This document shows, piece by piece, positions 24,791 through 37,827 of a stretch of 64,000 nt of DNA (the stretch's first letter is position 1; the number at the start of each line of letters is the position of its first letter). The position numbers and the translations under genes are program-made. The notes under the pieces were generated by a model. It saw only the letters and a program-made list of their open reading frames with translations, was not told the origin of the DNA and searched no databases. This stretch comes from Algoriphagus pacificus (GTDB lineage Bacteria > Bacteroidota > Bacteroidia > Cytophagales > Cyclobacteriaceae). Location: assembly GCF_017254845.1 (NCBI RefSeq), contig NZ_JAFKCU010000002.1, positions 496,001-560,000 on the forward strand. Reading direction: 5' to 3'.

Positions 24791-27748
24791 TTAACCTTCC
24801 GCATTCCAATATTCCAATCGTTCACATCTGGTAGCTTCGATGCTATAGAAATCAAATTCGGCGGTAACTTTCCCTTCGATCAAGTAAATAGCTCTTCCCT
24901 TAAAAGGATATTTTTTGACCACGGGAGGGAAATGTACCGTATCGATCCATTGCCCTTCCCGATCGATGAAGGTGCCAAAATTCATGACTTCCCCTTTGAC
25001 CGTTCGGGTGTATTTGACGGTAACTAAGTACCCGACGATCTGCACGGTTTTACCCAGATAGCTTTTGAGTTCGGCAGCACGAATGCCTCGAATACTTTGA
25101 TCTTTGATCAGGTGAAATGGTGAATCCAGCGGAAATTCCAGAATGTCGATCTGGTCTACGATCTCCTGTCGTATGTCAATTTCCTCGAGTTGCGGTACTG
25201 CAGGCTGACGAAAATTGAATCCGGTATTTTGCTTGAAAAGATCGGTGGGGCCGGGAATCGCTTTGCGCTTATTTAGGATGAAATGTGCTTCCCAAAGCAG
25301 TTCCTGTTTGGTTTTACCGGTGAACCGGAAGCAATTGATCCGAATGAGAATGAGTAACTGTTCCAGGCTGATTTCCACACGTCCGCAGAAATCCGCAAGT
25401 CCGAGGAAGTGACCATTTTGTCTGCGTTCGGTTAGGATTTTTTCTACCGAAGCTTTCTCCAGGTACTTGAGGTGGATCAACCCGAGATAAACCGTTTTTC
25501 CAATAATTCGGGTCAGGTATTCACTTTCGTTGATGTGGGGAGCCTGGATATCGGCTTCGTTCATTCGGAGTTCGTGTACGTAAAACTCGGTATGGTAGAA
25601 GCCTCCGAAATTATTGATTACTCCCACCATAAACTCCAGTGGAAAATAAGCTTTGAGGTAAAGACTTTGGTAGCTTTCCACCGCAAAAGAAGCGGAATGT
25701 CCCTTTGCAAAGGAATATCCCGCAAAACTCTCGATCTGATGCCAGACTTCGGCAGCGATCTGGTCGGGATGACCTTTCTCCCGGCAATTGCTGAAAAACC
25801 GGTCCTTTACACGCTGGAACTCATCTTTTGACCGGGATTTTCCACTCATACCTCTTCGCAGTACATCAGCTTCACCCAGGCTCAACCCAGCAAAGTAATG
25901 TGCCACCTTGATCACGTCCTCCTGATAGACCATGATGCCATAAGTTTCAGGCATGATATCGGCGAGGACAGGATGGGCGATATTGCGACGCTCCTTATCC
26001 ACATGACGTAAAATGTATTCACGCATCATTCCTGATCTTGCCACTCCAGGACGGATAATCGAACTCGCAGCCACGAGTTCCAGGTAAGTATTGGCTTTCA
26101 TCTTAGCCAATAGCATGCGCATGGCGGGAGATTCCACATAGAAAGCACCGATGGTATGCCCCGTCTGCAAATGTTCACGAATCAGGGGATCCTTTTTAAA
26201 CTCTTCCACCTTTCGGATGTCCACTTTCACCCCTTGGTTTTGGTAGATGATCTCAATCGCACTTTTGATATGTCCGAGGCCGCGCTGGCTCAGGATGTCA
26301 AACTTATGCAGTCCGATGTCCTCTGCCACATGCATGTCCACATGCGAAAGAGGGAATCCCTTGGGAGGCATTTCCGTAGCGGTGTAATAGTGGATAGGCT
26401 TGTGGGAAATCAGAATTCCACAGGCATGTACGGTCAGATGGGAAGGCATGTCATGGAGTACTTGACTGTATTTCATGATCAACTTCCCGAACTGATCCGG
26501 TTGGTAGTCAGGTTTGTCTGAGAAGTGAATCAAGGACTCGATTTCACTTTTTGGGAGACCAAAAACCTTCCCGAGTTCACGGAAGACGGAGTTGTATTGA
26601 AAGGTACTGTAGGCTGCCAATAAACTGACATGTTCCTGTTTGCCTTGATTGTACTTTCTGAAAATATAATCCGTGACCTCATCCCGATCTTTCCATGAAA
26701 AGTCTATGTCAAAGTCTGGAGGATTTTCCCGGTACAGGTTGATAAATCGCTCAAAATACAAGTCCAACTCGATTGGATCTACATCTGTGATTCCCAAGCA
26801 ATAAGCCACGATACTATTGGCTCCAGATCCTCGGCCTACATGGTAGAAGTTGCGTTGCTGGGCAAAGGTCACAATGTCGTAATTGATCAGGAAGTAAGAG
26901 GTGAAAGCCTTTTGCTGGATGAGCTCGAGTTCTTTTTCGATGCGTTGGGAAATCTCTGGAGTCAGATTGGGGTAGCGATAGAGTGCTCCTTTGAAGGTTT
27001 CTTGGCGGAGGAAATCGTAGTCTTGCCAGTCTGAACCTAATATGTCACGCTTGTTTTTGACTGCTTGAAAGTAGAAGGAAAACTGACAATGTTCCAGTAG
27101 TTTCTGGGCATTGGCCAGCAAGTAGCTATGACCTTCGGCCCGAGCGACCATATCGGCGTAGCTATAGAAGCGATCACTCGGATCTCCTTGTTCATCTTGA
27201 GGGAGCTTGCTCAGCAGTGTGTTCAGATCAATGCTTCGCAAGAGGCGATGGGCGTTGAACTCGATCTTGGAACTGAAAGTCGCAGGTTGCAACATGACCA
27301 ATCGGTCTTTGAACCGGAACCAAGGAGAGGAGATCAGTCGGTTGAGTTGACTGGGGTGTACGCCGATGTATTCATTTTCCCGCAGGGTAAAAAAGCGATC
27401 AGGTAGGGGATAAATAATAAAGCTATGATCAAAAGCAGGAGCTCGCTTCCCGAATGGTTTTTTATACACCAAGTGATCGGAAAGGTGGCTGTTGAGTTCG
27501 AAGAAGCCTTCCTGGTTTTTTGCCAATCCTATGTATTGCTGTCGGCTGCCATTGCGGAAATCAATACCGATGACAGGGTGAATCCCTATACGCTGAGCAG
27601 CCCGGATGAAAGGAAATACTCCTGCGGTACAATTGATGTCTGTGAGGGCAAATGCATCCAAATGTCTGCTCTTTGCCTCATCGATGAGCGCATCTACGGA
27701 CAGGGTGCCGTACTTAAAGCTGAAGTGAGAGTGACAGTTGATAAACAT
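24791..27748 (-). CDS. Short DnaE-type DNA polymerase III alpha subunit (translesion-type, DnaE2-like)
   Basis: C-family DNA polymerase of 985 residues, about 180 shorter than replicative DnaE. An N-terminal PHP domain starts INCHSHFSFKYGTLS; GRGSGANSIVAYCLGITDVDP and PPDFDIDF (catalytic Asp pair) mark the palm; a helix-hairpin-helix region and an OB-fold domain end the protein. The C-terminal tau-binding part of replicative DnaE is absent. Such short DnaE proteins work with DinB/ImuB in mutagenic repair. A promoter block shared with dinB lies 256 bases upstream, and its 5' leader holds a large repeat array. GC content looks higher than in the neighbours. Confidence 0.88.
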   Translation of the reverse strand: MFINCHSHFSFKYGTLSVDALIDEAKSRHLDAFALTDINCTAGVFPFIRAAQRIGIHPVIGIDFRNGSRQQYIGLAKNQEGFFELNSHLSDHLVYKKPFGKRAPAFDHSFIIYPLPDRFFTLRENEYIGVHPSQLNRLISSPWFRFKDRLVMLQPATFSSKIEFNAHRLLRSIDLNTLLSKLPQDEQGDPSDRFYSYADMVARAEGHSYLLANAQKLLEHCQFSFYFQAVKNKRDILGSDWQDYDFLRQETFKGALYRYPNLTPEISQRIEKELELIQQKAFTSYFLINYDIVTFAQQRNFYHVGRGSGANSIVAYCLGITDVDPIELDLYFERFINLYRENPPDFDIDFSWKDRDEVTDYIFRKYNQGKQEHVSLLAAYSTFQYNSVFRELGKVFGLPKSEIESLIHFSDKPDYQPDQFGKLIMKYSQVLHDMPSHLTVHACGILISHKPIHYYTATEMPPKGFPLSHVDMHVAEDIGLHKFDILSQRGLGHIKSAIEIIYQNQGVKVDIRKVEEFKKDPLIREHLQTGHTIGAFYVESPAMRMLLAKMKANTYLELVAASSIIRPGVARSGMMREYILRHVDKERRNIAHPVLADIMPETYGIMVYQEDVIKVAHYFAGLSLGEADVLRRGMSGKSRSKDEFQRVKDRFFSNCREKGHPDQIAAEVWHQIESFAGYSFAKGHSASFAVESYQSLYLKAYFPLEFMVGVINNFGGFYHTEFYVHELRMNEADIQAPHINESEYLTRIIGKTVYLGLIHLKYLEKASVEKILTERRQNGHFLGLADFCGRVEISLEQLLILIRINCFRFTGKTKQELLWEAHFILNKRKAIPGPTDLFKQNTGFNFRQPAVPQLEEIDIRQEIVDQIDILEFPLDSPFHLIKDQSIRGIRAAELKSYLGKTVQIVGYLVTVKYTRTVKGEVMNFGTFIDREGQWIDTVHFPPVVKKYPFKGRAIYLIEGKVTAEFDFYSIEATRCERLEYWNAEG

Positions 27749-27769: not shown

Positions 27770-27981
27770 GAAATACGCTTTTGGCGAAATAGAGTCGCTT
27801 CGCTCCTGATGAGATACGCCTTTCTACCTTTGGCAGGCAGTCGACGAGATAGGGACTCCTTCGTTGTCCGAGATACAGCTTTGCTGAGATAAGGTCGCTT
27901 CGCTCCCGAGATAAACCTTCGGCGAAATAGAACGGAGACAGTATTTCACCGACCGAAGGAAGGTGTATTTCTAAGTATCTC
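27770..27981. repeat. GARATA hairpin array A in the 5' leader of the dnaE-like gene
   Basis: Eight forward GAGATA/GAAATA motifs start at 27770, 27786, 27811, 27846, 27870, 27886, 27908 and 27924, with spacers of 10, 19, 29, 18, 10, 16 and 10 bases. Three inverted copies (TATTTC/TATCTC) follow at 27942, 27966 and 27976. Spacers are self-complementary around a central TTC, for example CAGCTTTGCT, AGGTCGCTTCGCTCCC and AACCTTCGGC. The array fills the space between the promoter-like block and the start codon, so it would be transcribed as a run of small hairpins. Confidence 0.8.
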
Positions 27982-28003
27982 TATTGTTCCCTTTTTCAAA
28001 ATG

Positions 28004-28041
28004 TCAATTTTATTAACATTTTAATGTTTATAATGTAGTCA
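28004..28041 (-). promoter_or_regulatory. Promoter/operator block of the dnaE-like gene, shared with dinB
   Basis: 31 of 38 bases match 36393-36430, which lies directly before dinB. The core on the plus strand is ACATTTTAATGTTTATAAT and contains the palindrome AACATT-TT-AATGTT. On the minus strand a TTTTG element precedes a TAAAATG element, loosely like a Bacteroidota promoter. The simplest reading is a common SOS-type operator and promoter. Confidence 0.65.
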
Positions 28042-28144: not shown

Positions 28145-28708
28145 TTACCCAATCTTAATTCCATATTTCCCGAGCAAACCAGGAAGTCCGTCAAGATCAA
28201 AGCGGGCTCCTTTGATGCGGTTGAGCTCTGGATCGATTCTATAATTTTGAGCTTCCCTGAAGTCGGCTTTTTCGAGCATAGTCTGATCAAAGACAGCACC
28301 GCTGAGTTCACTCCCGGCAAAGCTACTTCCTGTAAGATTAGCCATGGTGAAGTCAGCTTCCAGTAATCGACAAGAATTGAAATTGGTTTTCTTCACCTGA
28401 AGATTGTAAAAGCCACAATAGTCCATTTGGCAGTTTTTGAAGGAAAACTCAATCAAGAAAGGGTTGCAACTTTGGAAGTGAATCCCCAGTATTTTACAGG
28501 AATCAAAGTTGACTCCCCGGAAAGAAACCCCAGGGACCTTGCAGTTACTCAAATCACAATTCGTAAAAAAGCAATCCTCAAAGCTGAAACCTTGGAGATT
28601 CATGCCCGAAAAGTTGCACTGCGAAAAGTGGCAAGCTTCATATTCACCTGGTAAGAAATTTTCTGAATTTAAATTCTGGAATTGTTGGTCAGAGTAATAA
28701 GACATCAA
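28145..28708 (-). CDS. Pentapeptide-repeat protein (Qnr/McbG-like)
   Basis: 187 residues made almost entirely of A(N/D)LXX-type pentapeptide units (for example CHFSQCNFSGMNLQGFSFED and ADFTMANLTGSSFAGSELSG), forming a right-handed quadrilateral beta-helix. A break near residue 100 with FYNLQVKKTNFNSC is like the short hinge in Qnr-type proteins, which mimic DNA and protect gyrase. Length and plan fit McbG/Qnr, but pentapeptide proteins have other roles too. Start is ATG 28708 or the next codon. Confidence 0.85.
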   Translation of the reverse strand: MMSYYSDQQFQNLNSENFLPGEYEACHFSQCNFSGMNLQGFSFEDCFFTNCDLSNCKVPGVSFRGVNFDSCKILGIHFQSCNPFLIEFSFKNCQMDYCGFYNLQVKKTNFNSCRLLEADFTMANLTGSSFAGSELSGAVFDQTMLEKADFREAQNYRIDPELNRIKGARFDLDGLPGLLGKYGIKIG

Positions 28709-34416: not shown

Positions 34417-34424
34417 TTAAAGTT

Positions 34425-34598
34425 GAAATAGGCCTGCGGCGAGATAGAGTCACTTCGCTTCTGAGATACAGCTTCGCTGAGATAGGGTCGCTTGACTCCC
34501 GAGATATGCTGAAGCGAGATATGCCTTCGGCGAAATAGCTTGGTTTAGTATTTCCCGACCGAAGGGAGGTTTATTTCAATGGTATTTCAAAGTATTTC
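34425..34598. repeat. GARATA hairpin array B
   Basis: Seven forward GAGATA/GAAATA motifs start at 34425, 34441, 34463, 34479, 34501, 34516 and 34532, with spacers of 10, 16, 10, 16, 9 and 10 bases, an almost regular alternation. Inverted TATTTC copies follow at 34549, 34572, 34583 and 34593. Ten-base spacers (CAGCTTCGCT, TGCCTTCGGC) and 16-base spacers (GGGTCGCTTGACTCCC) match units of array A. The final inverted copy overlaps the stop codon of the GNAT gene. Confidence 0.8.
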
Positions 34599-35193: not shown

Positions 35194-36384
35194 TCAAACA
35201 GCCATCCCATTAAAAGGATTAAACCTTCTTCTTCCCACGGACATGCCTACAGCTCGGCAGACGGTTTTCTCACCAAACTTCCCATTGATTTTATCCATAG
35301 CTTGGTAAAGGTTGATTTGCTCCTGGGTGTCTTCGAATAGCTTGATCTGGTAGTTGCCGTAAACCAGCGAACTGAAACGTACCCCGATCAGTCGGATCAG
35401 CATTCGCCTGTTGTAAAGCTTGCGGAAGAGTTCTTTCACCAGCGGGATCAGCGTGTGATCTGCCGAAGTGTAGGGAATGCGCTGCTGCACAGTATGTGTG
35501 TCAAAATCCGAGTAACGAATCTTTACACTCACACAGGCTGTCAATTGTAGATTTTGACGGAGTTTTCCGGCGAGCTGCTCGCACATCGCAACCAGCGTAG
35601 CTTCCAGCATCTTCACGTCGATGGTGTCCTGCTCGAAGGTATTTTCCGTAGAAATGGATTTGGCTTCGGAATAGGGGGTGACTGGGGATCTGTCAATGCC
35701 ATTGGCCTTTTCCCAGATCATATTCCCGTTTTTACCAAAAGTAGCTTGTAGGAGTTCGGCAGGCATTTGCTGCAGCGTCTGTACTTTTTTGACACCCATG
35801 TTGTAAAGCGTCTGGGATGTTTTTTCTCCGATCATCGGGATTTTCCGAACGGATAGAGGAGCGAGAAAAGGCTTTTCTTCTCCGAATAGAATCTGTTTTT
35901 CGTTGTTTGGTTTGGCCTCTCCGGTTGCCACTTTGGAGACAGTTTTATTCTCTGATAGTCCCAGTGAAATGGGTAATCCCGTTTCTTTCATGATGCGTTG
36001 CCGGATCTGCTGCGAAAGCTTGAAGCAACCGAAAAAGCGATCCATTCCTGTGAGATCGATGTAGAATTCATCAATGGAGGATTTTTCAAAAAGAGGTACT
36101 TCCTCCCTGATGATCTCGGTGACCTCGTGGGATTTTTGGCTGTACTTCTCAAAGTCGCCCCGAATAATCAATGCCTCGGGACAAAGTTGCCTGGCAGTAC
36201 GCATGGGCATGGCAGAATGCACACCAAATTTTCTGGCCTCATAGCTGCAAGAAGCCACTACGCCTCGGTCCCCGGAACCTCCGATCAAGATTGGCTTCCC
36301 GTTGAGCCTGCTGTCAAATAACCTCTCTACCGACACAAAATAGGAGTCCAGATCCATGTGCACGATACTTCTTCTCGCTTCCAT
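35194..36384 (-). CDS. dinB: DNA polymerase IV (Y-family translesion polymerase)
   Basis: Error-prone polymerase of 396 residues that extends past damaged bases. VHMDLDSYFVSVERL carries the first catalytic Asp, and SSIDEFYIDLTG carries the second Asp-Glu pair. The helix-hairpin-helix region (KIPMIGEKTSQTLYNMGVKKV) and little-finger domain follow. I see no clear C-terminal beta-clamp box. A promoter block shared with the dnaE-like gene lies 9 bases upstream. It diverges from the four-helix-bundle and S24 regulator genes, fitting a damage-inducible locus. Confidence 0.93.
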   Translation of the reverse strand: MEARRSIVHMDLDSYFVSVERLFDSRLNGKPILIGGSGDRGVVASCSYEARKFGVHSAMPMRTARQLCPEALIIRGDFEKYSQKSHEVTEIIREEVPLFEKSSIDEFYIDLTGMDRFFGCFKLSQQIRQRIMKETGLPISLGLSENKTVSKVATGEAKPNNEKQILFGEEKPFLAPLSVRKIPMIGEKTSQTLYNMGVKKVQTLQQMPAELLQATFGKNGNMIWEKANGIDRSPVTPYSEAKSISTENTFEQDTIDVKMLEATLVAMCEQLAGKLRQNLQLTACVSVKIRYSDFDTHTVQQRIPYTSADHTLIPLVKELFRKLYNRRMLIRLIGVRFSSLVYGNYQIKLFEDTQEQINLYQAMDKINGKFGEKTVCRAVGMSVGRRRFNPFNGMAV

Positions 36385-36392
36385 TCCTTTTG

Positions 36393-36430
36393 TTAATTAT
36401 ATTGACATTTTAGTGTTTATAATTTAAACA
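36393..36430 (-). promoter_or_regulatory. Promoter/operator block of dinB, shared with the dnaE-like gene
   Basis: Matches 28004-28041 at 31 of 38 positions. The core ACATTTTAGTGTTTATAAT is a slightly imperfect version of the palindrome in the dnaE block. It begins only 9 bases before the dinB ATG, so a repressor bound here would directly block transcription. Confidence 0.65.
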
Positions 36431-36495: not shown

Positions 36496-36553
36496 GAAAT
36501 ACACCTTTGGTGAGATACAATAGAAATACACCTTCCCACCGGTCGGTGAAATA
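36496..36553. repeat. GARATA array C (short)
   Basis: Four forward motifs at 36496, 36512, 36523 and 36548. The first spacer (CACCTTTGGT) is self-complementary and the last (CACCTTCCCACCGGTCGGT) can also fold. Lies between divergent dinB and the four-helix-bundle gene. Confidence 0.65.
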
Positions 36554-36604
36554 CTTAATTCGGGTCTTATTTTACCGAAAGTCTATTTCAACAAAGAATA
36601 AAAT

Positions 36605-37006
36605 ATGAATGAGAAATCAGCTTATATCCCGATTCATGAACTGGAGGTCTATCGCATTTCCCGAAAGCTTTCTACGAATGCATGGACTGTTTATCAACGA
36701 TTGAGTTTTCAGGAAAAGAAAGTTTGGGGTGATCAAATGCTGTCTGCGGTTGATTCAGTGGGTGCAAATATTGCCGAAGGATATGCTCGATTTCATTTTT
36801 CAGAAAAATCCAGATTCTATTACATTTCAAGGGCATCTTTATCTGAAGGTGTAGAACATTGGATCGATTTGGGCTTTGAAAGAGGAATTGTGTCTGATCA
36901 GGAATTCTTACTATTCAATCAACTTAGACGTGACATTCAAGTCAGATTAAATAACATGATTAAATCTACTTATTCTGCTAAAAATCAAATAAAAGACAAT
37001 AGTTAG
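36605..37006 (+). CDS. Four-helix-bundle protein (23S rRNA intervening-sequence protein family)
   Basis: 133 residues, all helical. The pattern ELEVYRISRKLSTNAWTVYQ, then VDSVGANIAEGYARFHFSEKSRFYYISRASLSEG, is the family signature. Such proteins were first found inside 23S rRNA insertions, but many lie free in the genome, as here; their role is unclear. It precedes the S24 regulator by 66 bases on the same strand and has repeat arrays on both sides. Confidence 0.85.
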   Translation: MNEKSAYIPIHELEVYRISRKLSTNAWTVYQRLSFQEKKVWGDQMLSAVDSVGANIAEGYARFHFSEKSRFYYISRASLSEGVEHWIDLGFERGIVSDQEFLLFNQLRRDIQVRLNNMIKSTYSAKNQIKDNS

Positions 37007-37010
37007 CCTG

Positions 37011-37061
37011 TATTTCGCCCCGCTTGCGGGGCTTATCTCTATTTTATTTCTATTGTATTTC
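37011..37061. repeat. GARATA array D (inverted), in front of the S24 regulator
   Basis: Four inverted copies (TATTTC at 37011, TATCTC at 37034, TATTTC at 37045 and 37056). Between the first two is a perfect 7-bp hairpin GCCCCGC-TT-GCGGGGC (37017-37032). The last copy ends 10 bases before the regulator's ATG, so the array overlaps its promoter or leader. Confidence 0.65.
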
Positions 37062-37071
37062 AGATATAATT

Positions 37072-37767
37072 ATGACTTTAAATACCAACATTAAGTTTAT
37101 AAGAAAAAAGAAAAATCTAACCCAAGAGATGCTAGCTTCTACCTTGGGGATTTCCAGGTCTAAGTTGGCGGGATATGAGTCCAGTGTAAATCCGCCTTTG
37201 GATACCTTGGTGAAAATATCAGATACTTTGGGTGTGTCAGTGGATATTTTGCTGCGGGAGGATTTGTCCTCTTATTCGGAATATAAGCTCCGGGAATTGC
37301 TGGAAACAGATCAGTTTCTGAGGGGTAGAAAGCTTCGGATTTTGGCGACCACAGTGGATGAGCAGGGGAGAGAGCTGATTGAAGTGGTTTCACAGCGGGC
37401 CAAAGCAAGTTACCTAGCAGGATTTGCTGATCCCGAGTACATTTCAGAGTTGCCGAGGTTTGCGTTACCTTTCTTGCCAACAGATAAAAAACATCGTGTG
37501 TTTCAGGTAGATGGAGACTCTATGCTGCCGATTCCAGATGGAGCCTGGATCGTCTGTGAATATGTGGATGATTGGCTGGCAGTGAAGGACGGAGAGCGCT
37601 ATGTAATAGTAACCGAGCAAGATGGGGTGACATTCAAGTTGGCTTATAACCGCATTCAGTCAGAGGAGAAATTACTGCTATGCTCAGCAAACCCGATTTA
37701 CCCGCCTTTCGAAGTGGAAATCGAACAGGTGAGGGAAATATGGAAATATCGCTTGGCGATGAGTTGA
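37072..37767 (+). CDS. XRE-HTH / S24 peptidase autocleavable repressor (LexA/CI-like)
   Basis: Likely DNA-damage regulator of 231 residues. I choose ATG 37072 because the helix-turn-helix begins at once (NIKFIRKKKNLTQEMLASTLGIS); an in-frame start at 37024 adds a leader that overlaps array D. The S24 domain has the nucleophile Ser150 in VDGDSMLP, the general base Lys189 in VTFKLAYN, and an Ala116-Gly117 pair in YLAGFAD at the expected cleavage site, so self-cleavage is likely. With dinB and ogt beside it and dnaE2 nearby, it is the best candidate to control the damage module. Confidence 0.88.
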   Translation: MTLNTNIKFIRKKKNLTQEMLASTLGISRSKLAGYESSVNPPLDTLVKISDTLGVSVDILLREDLSSYSEYKLRELLETDQFLRGRKLRILATTVDEQGRELIEVVSQRAKASYLAGFADPEYISELPRFALPFLPTDKKHRVFQVDGDSMLPIPDGAWIVCEYVDDWLAVKDGERYVIVTEQDGVTFKLAYNRIQSEEKLLLCSANPIYPPFEVEIEQVREIWKYRLAMS

Positions 37768-37786: not shown

Positions 37787-37827
37787 GAAATACACCTCAC
37801 TGCGCTCGGTGAAATACAGTTGAAATA
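37787..37827. repeat. GARATA array E (short), behind the S24 regulator
   Basis: Three forward motifs at 37787, 37811 and 37822. The 18-base spacer CACCTCACTGCGCTCGGT resembles the CACC..GGT spacers of array C. A further degenerate unit (GAAATATCGCTTGGCGATGAG) forms the last codons of the S24 gene, from 37743. Confidence 0.6.

Follow-up and report, generated by a model that had tools for sequence, protein, structure and literature searches.

A predicted operator pair shared by dinB and dnaE2 in Algoriphagus pacificus and its relatives, and a candidate S24-type repressor

Two polymerase genes of Algoriphagus pacificus, dinB and a second, dnaE2-like dnaE, are preceded by the same block of DNA, whose sequence fits a tandem pair of dyads better than a single central palindrome. 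This dyad pair accompanies both genes in related Cyclobacteriaceae. We regard it as probable that the pair is bound by two dimers of a CI-type HTH/S24 protein, most often encoded next to dinB, which would repress both polymerases together with its own promoter and release them jointly on its inactivation.

Results and discussion

The shared block and the genes that follow it

The window is the whole stretch analysed here, 64,000 nucleotides of contig NZ_JAFKCU010000002.1. The following features concern us:

24791-27748, minus strand: second dnaE, dnaE2-like, a candidate of the error-prone type, 985 aa (Pfam DNA_pol3_alpha and PHP)
28003-28040, minus strand: predicted operator pair located upstream of dnaE2, with distal dyad GACTA-CATTA-TAAAC (28026-28040) and proximal dyad GTTAA-TAAAA-TTGAC (28003-28017), both gene-sense, and an 8-bp linker
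28015-28028, no strand assigned: palindrome AACATT-TT-AATGTT, made of the end of one dyad, the linker and the start of the next
35194-36384, minus strand: dinB, Y-family polymerase (Pfam IMS domains)
36392-36429, minus strand: predicted operator pair located upstream of dinB, with distal dyad GTTTA-AATTA-TAAAC (36415-36429) and proximal dyad GTCAA-TATAA-TTAAC (36392-36406), and an 8-bp linker
36605-37006, plus strand: gene of the 23S rRNA IVP family (four-helix bundle), separating dinB from the S24 gene and enclosed by 18-nt inverted repeats (36511-36528 and 37045-37062)
37072-37767, plus strand: HTH_3 and peptidase S24 repressor, proposed to bind the blocks; catalytic Ser150/Lys189 retained, with Ala112-Ser113 where the scissile Ala-Gly is normally found

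The original prediction, of a 31/38 match between two blocks that both lie upstream of minus-strand polymerase genes, was confirmed in each respect. A hand count found 31 of 38 bases identical between 28004-28041 and 36393-36430, rising to 32/38 in the best register (28006/36395), and the genes are indeed dinB (IMS) and a 985-aa DnaE (DNA_pol3_alpha, PHP). The register came from an all-against-all comparison of 38-mers (same strand, window only, offsets of at least 38), which returned nine separate pairs with at least 30/38 identities. The dnaE2/dinB block is one of them; judged by position, the other eight seem to be duplicated genes (46-48 kb and 56-58 kb) or, at 27.8/34.4 kb, a dispersed repeat. 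Contig 1 of the same genome carries a longer dnaE (1435-aa frame). The proximal edge of the dinB block lies 7 bp before the dinB ATG, and the other block 254 bp before the dnaE2 ATG, with dispersed repeats in between. Just upstream of the dnaE2 block, a gene for a pentapeptide-repeat protein (28145-28708) is weakly Qnr-like in NCBIfam, all matches being far below cut-off.

Conservation of the pair and its occurrence in the genome

The scan of named loci kept 80 out of 89 relatives, 78 of them with upstream DNA, mainly from Algoriphagus and other Cyclobacteriaceae; by S24 protein, A. iocasae is the nearest (97%). In 74 of these 78 loci dinB is divergent from the S24 gene. The pair pattern was scored over 20 fixed positions, eight of them two-letter, and in each locus with dinB beside the S24 gene the pair departs from the pattern at no more than two of the 20. 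Taking the best match within 1500 bp for all 78 loci, 0, 1, 2, 3 and 4 mismatches were obtained in 38, 25, 11, 3 and 1 loci, respectively, while at two mismatches or fewer the controls gave one of 76 downstream stretches and none of 78 Markov-shuffled stretches. At the same threshold the pair lies upstream of dnaE2 in all loci of the window's clade; it was found in 0/7 dnaE2 loci of genomes outside this clade (L052-L058). Conservation at dinB (74/74) and at dnaE2 (18/18) thus strongly supports the predicted operator common to both polymerases, the unnamed and named sets partly overlapping, so that the two tallies are not independent.

The pair is also present where the genes are dispersed. In four species, three of Aquiflexum and one of Cognataquiflexum, neither polymerase is encoded within 5 kb on either side of the S24 gene, and dinB and dnaE2 are located on separate contigs. 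The pair nevertheless precedes dinB in 4/4 of these species (0, 0, 0 and 1 mismatches) and dnaE2 in 4/4 (no mismatch), and the S24 promoter itself displays a weaker pair (3, 3, 3 and 4 mismatches), 33-58 bp before the ATG.

A genome search had been named as a check, and its outcome agrees with a dedicated operator: among the best 150 candidates, the profile of the block finds only two places in the genome of A. pacificus, both in the window, the four matches being each site on both strands. The dnaE2 site is the best genome-wide (E 2.1e-12) and the dinB site follows with 3.5e-12, both being training sites of the profile. Across the 38 genomes searched, where scoring covered the best 150 candidates per genome and could thus miss weak regulon members, 34 training sites and one further site reached E 1e-5 or better. 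This further site (L243, G023:C25:252610-252649, E 1e-5) has neither dinB nor dnaE2 among its adjoining ORFs. The 14-mer AACATTTTAATGTT has two exact copies in the genome, one in the window and one on contig 47; the latter lies beside a tRNA-3'-end-like sequence (by eye), with no polymerase among the ORFs listed, and was set aside.

Two tandem dyads or one junction palindrome

In 34 aligned copies (18 dnaE2, 16 dinB), the block consists of two dyads GTYWA-N5-TWRAC, separated by 8 bp and with centres 23 bp apart. As the flanking base is mostly or always T on the left and mostly or always A on the right, they can be read as 17-bp dyads TGTYWA-N5-TWRACA. All 34 rows share the tetranucleotide TTTG, the G of which opens the distal dyad. 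By eye, no clear Bacteroidetes -7 box was seen within the block.

The original prediction had placed the core of the block in the palindrome AACATT-TT-AATGTT. This palindrome exists, but as the junction of two dyads, and the measures do not all point in one direction. The mean share of complementary pairs, over 82 distinct cores drawn from 92 rows (74 dinB from the named loci, 18 dnaE2), reaches its maxima, 0.785 and 0.73, at the centres of the two dyads, versus 0.686 at the junction and 0.683 at another centre; the 74 dinB rows were picked by closeness to the pattern, so this measure favours two dyads. Among 32 distinct rows, 90.6% of cells are paired in the two dyads and 85.9% in the junction dyad, compared to 31.8-45.3% when partners are slid by 1-3 columns. 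For the two dyads neither pairing (201/500 shuffles as high) nor covariation (79/500) is above shuffles in these rows, whereas the junction dyad beats them in covariation (5/500 as high) and in pairing (11/500). Support for two dyads therefore comes from positional symmetry and conservation, not from covariation. We rejected the junction palindrome as the operator on its symmetry, lower than that of the flanking dyads, although its covariation and pairing exceed those of shuffles.

The spacing between the dyads was scored in 36 of the 80 loci, those with the dinB start located by script, and 23 bp ranks first with a mean of 8.25 of 10, the best shuffled spacing reaching 6.75. In the group of linked S24 genes encoding Ala-Gly, the 23-bp spacing comes fourth over six intergenic regions and is not significant, and in 20 promoters of the S24 paralogue described below it only ties with 16; in both groups this spacing stays at the level of a suggestion.

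The linked S24 protein and other candidate explanations

The likeliest binder of the block, judged from sequence and gene neighbourhood, is the CI-type HTH/S24 protein encoded at 37072. Both of its Pfam domains are over cut-off, HTH_3 (PF01381) with E 2e-13 and Peptidase_S24 (PF00717) with E 1.7e-8, and the winged-helix DNA-binding domain typical of canonical LexA (PF01726) gives no match at E 0.001. The catalytic residues Ser150 and Lys189 do not vary in either of two alignments, of 22 and of 36 sequences. At the scissile place, Ala-Ser is found in 15/15 full-length close homologues and in all 78 named loci with upstream DNA; the latter were partly selected for it, KASYLAGF being one of two search peptides, while the 15 homologues were not. 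The same aligned place is occupied by Ala-Gly in the S24 paralogues and in the Ala-Gly linked group. A close S24 homologue is present in 17 of the 18 block-bearing genomes; none was found in the remaining one, G013, which is 67% complete. In the tree, which takes in the re-read L125, L126 and L129 and leaves out L225 as unreadable, the linked Ala-Ser proteins lie on one side of a branch (98/98; 26 rows) and the S24 paralogues form another group (100/100; 20 rows), while the node that unites the Ala-Gly linked and Ala-Ser groups may be an artefact. The AlphaFold model (mean pLDDT 70.5, about 60 in the S24 half) is too weak for placing the scissile bond, and a profile search of PDB sequences matched HTH proteins, the S24 half of the window protein obtaining three chance-level matches (best E 0.36) and that of the paralogue none.

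Regulation by this protein had been put forward from the start, and the CI-type HTH/S24 architecture together with its position next to dinB in 74/78 loci argues for it. On the other hand, in the window the S24 gene is about 640 bp from the dinB block, behind an inserted gene, which we count against it, and the block could instead be bound by a second S24 paralogue. The term 'SOS-type' used for the operator can be kept only as a possibility: the scissile Ala-Gly is replaced by Ala-Ser, recA of the same genome has no block-type site upstream, and the second paralogue may be the binder.

This second paralogue (G000:C38:210245-210892) keeps Ala-Gly, as do 20/20 copies on the tree, and could be the true binder, the window S24 protein being a modulator or a mere neighbour. 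It is present in 22 of 23 same-genus relatives, G020 having a short partial match only. Its promoters contain TGTTTA-N5-nnAACA elements adjoining a GACA-N5-TGTC dyad, and in 11 genomes weak matches to the block profile (E 1e-4 to 0.06) are found a few hundred bp upstream, so that cross-binding is possible. However, in four genomes of the same genus whose linked S24 protein carries Ala-Gly (G009, G017, G019 and G021), the fetched dinB and dnaE2 loci have no block with four mismatches or fewer, yet the paralogue promoter keeps its own elements (three by scan, the fourth, L129, by eye). The block thus goes with the Ala-Ser linked S24 protein and not with the paralogue, and it is the linked gene that neighbours dinB in nearly all named loci. 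We consider binding by the paralogue improbable.

As to the paralogue locus itself (L125, G000:C38), the gene follows a small ORF in the interval 929-1974. Among 22 loci scanned, 18 have a promoter that combines GACA-N5-[TC]GTC with GTTWA/GTTGA-N5-nnAAC, the centres being 22-23 or 47 bp apart, and these elements could possibly constitute a separate operator array.

A quite different reading takes the block as a promoter served by a special sigma factor or by an activator instead of a repressor operator. The block does abut the dinB ATG, and its TTTG is invariant. The fixed spacing of the two dyads, the presence of a CI-type HTH/S24 gene next to dinB and weaker pairs at the promoter of this S24 gene all speak against it, making this reading very unlikely. 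Finally, a dispersed repeat, or chance likeness between AT-rich intergenic stretches, evoked by the base composition of the block and by the repeats close by, is refuted by the family-wide conservation at both genes as compared with shuffled and downstream controls, and by the profile search with its two places in the genome among the best 150 candidates, and has practically no chance of being right.

A proposed switch

We return to the linked S24 protein as binder. Since centres 23 bp apart correspond to about two helical turns, both dyads lie on one face of the DNA. Two dimers of the protein would bind the dyad pair, presumably in a cooperative manner, block transcription of dinB and dnaE2 and also damp the protein's own promoter. 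Its inactivation, presumably via self-cleavage after DNA damage, would then release dinB, dnaE2 and the S24 gene together; we infer that this damage induction would be driven by RecA. As far as seen, the targets would be only dinB and dnaE2, and probably the S24 gene itself.

A bolder and rather doubtful extension is that the two mutagenic polymerases of the family were placed under a private repressor, apart from the other S24 regulator, with a Gly to Ser change at the scissile place on one branch, and that release would not follow standard SOS cleavage but a route that is altered (Ala-Ser) or independent of RecA.

If the proposed switch is true, Cyclobacteriaceae would have a mutagenesis switch with a defined operator and a defined smallest set of targets. 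It would also offer a clean test of repressor-operator divergence, with a fixed pair at separate genes and a scissile change on one branch, the Ala-Gly paralogue of the same cell serving as control.

Comparison with known systems

The operators of phage lambda CI, a protein with a CI-type HTH, are adjacent dyads of about 17 bp with some 23-24 bp between centres. The pair described here resembles them in dyad size and centre distance, as does the S24 protein in its HTH, and this layout suggests, by analogy, cooperative dimers. Unlike lambda CI, no prophage switch is involved here, and there are two sites per promoter.

Among bacterial systems, the closest is the non-canonical LexA of Bacteroidetes. 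These are HTH_3/S24 repressors cleaved at Ala-Gly, with two motifs, and diverged motifs in paralogues (Sanchez-Osuna et al. 2021, PMC8565304). The nearest arrangement is that of E. anophelis, in which a mitomycin C-responsive regulator lies opposite an error-prone polymerase, with the motif TTAC-N5-GTAA (PMC8565304). The two systems share the CI-type HTH (PF01381) with an S24 domain, the Ser-Lys catalytic dyad, and dyads with a 5-bp spacer at dinB/dnaE2-type polymerases and at the regulator's own gene, where the site is weaker in our case if dinB is not adjacent. They differ in the operator, here the fixed pair GTYWA-N5-TWRAC and there GGA-N5-TCC or CTAA-N5-TTAG, in the small target set seen here, from which recA is absent, and in Ala-Ser here for Ala-Gly there. 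None of the published motifs (CTAA-N5-TTAG, GGA-N5-TCC, TTAC-N5-GTAA) lies within either block; CTAA-N5-TTAG is absent from the window and from the recA region, and GGA-N5-TCC occurs once in the latter, inside recA. As three features looked for (scissile Ala-Gly, published motifs and recA control) do not agree with that system as there described, we class ours as a variant of it and not as a member. The main text of that paper nowhere contains Algoriphagus, Belliella or Cyclobacter*; title searches for Algoriphagus LexA, Cyclobacteriaceae SOS response and Bacteroidetes non-canonical LexA gave nothing else on this system, and no Cyclobacteriaceae SOS regulon was found in the literature searched.

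Two other regulators deserve mention. IrvR of Streptococcus mutans is a LexA-like repressor departing from RecA-dependent cleavage (PMC7101444); its targets are others, and in our protein only the scissile residue appears, from the sequence, to differ. UmuDAb of Acinetobacter represses error-prone polymerases in a genus without LexA (PMC11332147), as is proposed for the S24 protein here, from which it is distinguished by being UmuD-derived and by working with the corepressor DdrR.

Repeats and the IVP gene around the blocks

The IVP gene inserted between dinB and the S24 gene belongs to a 23S rRNA IVP family with eight matches in the genome of A. pacificus (L261-L268). Its inverted flanking repeats score above all 100 shuffles in 5/8 copies, and by eye the repeat letters differ copy by copy. 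IVP may be a repeat-associated mobile gene, a kind of element on which nothing was found in the literature searched. Moreover, a dispersed intergenic repeat of GARATAC...CTTCGCTCC type is present in the window at 27770-27975, 34422-34592, 36496-37055 and 37787-37822, and clusters in the gaps between genes, including the dnaE2 leader. On both strands GARATAC is found 43 times, as compared with a mean of 21 in mononucleotide shuffles.
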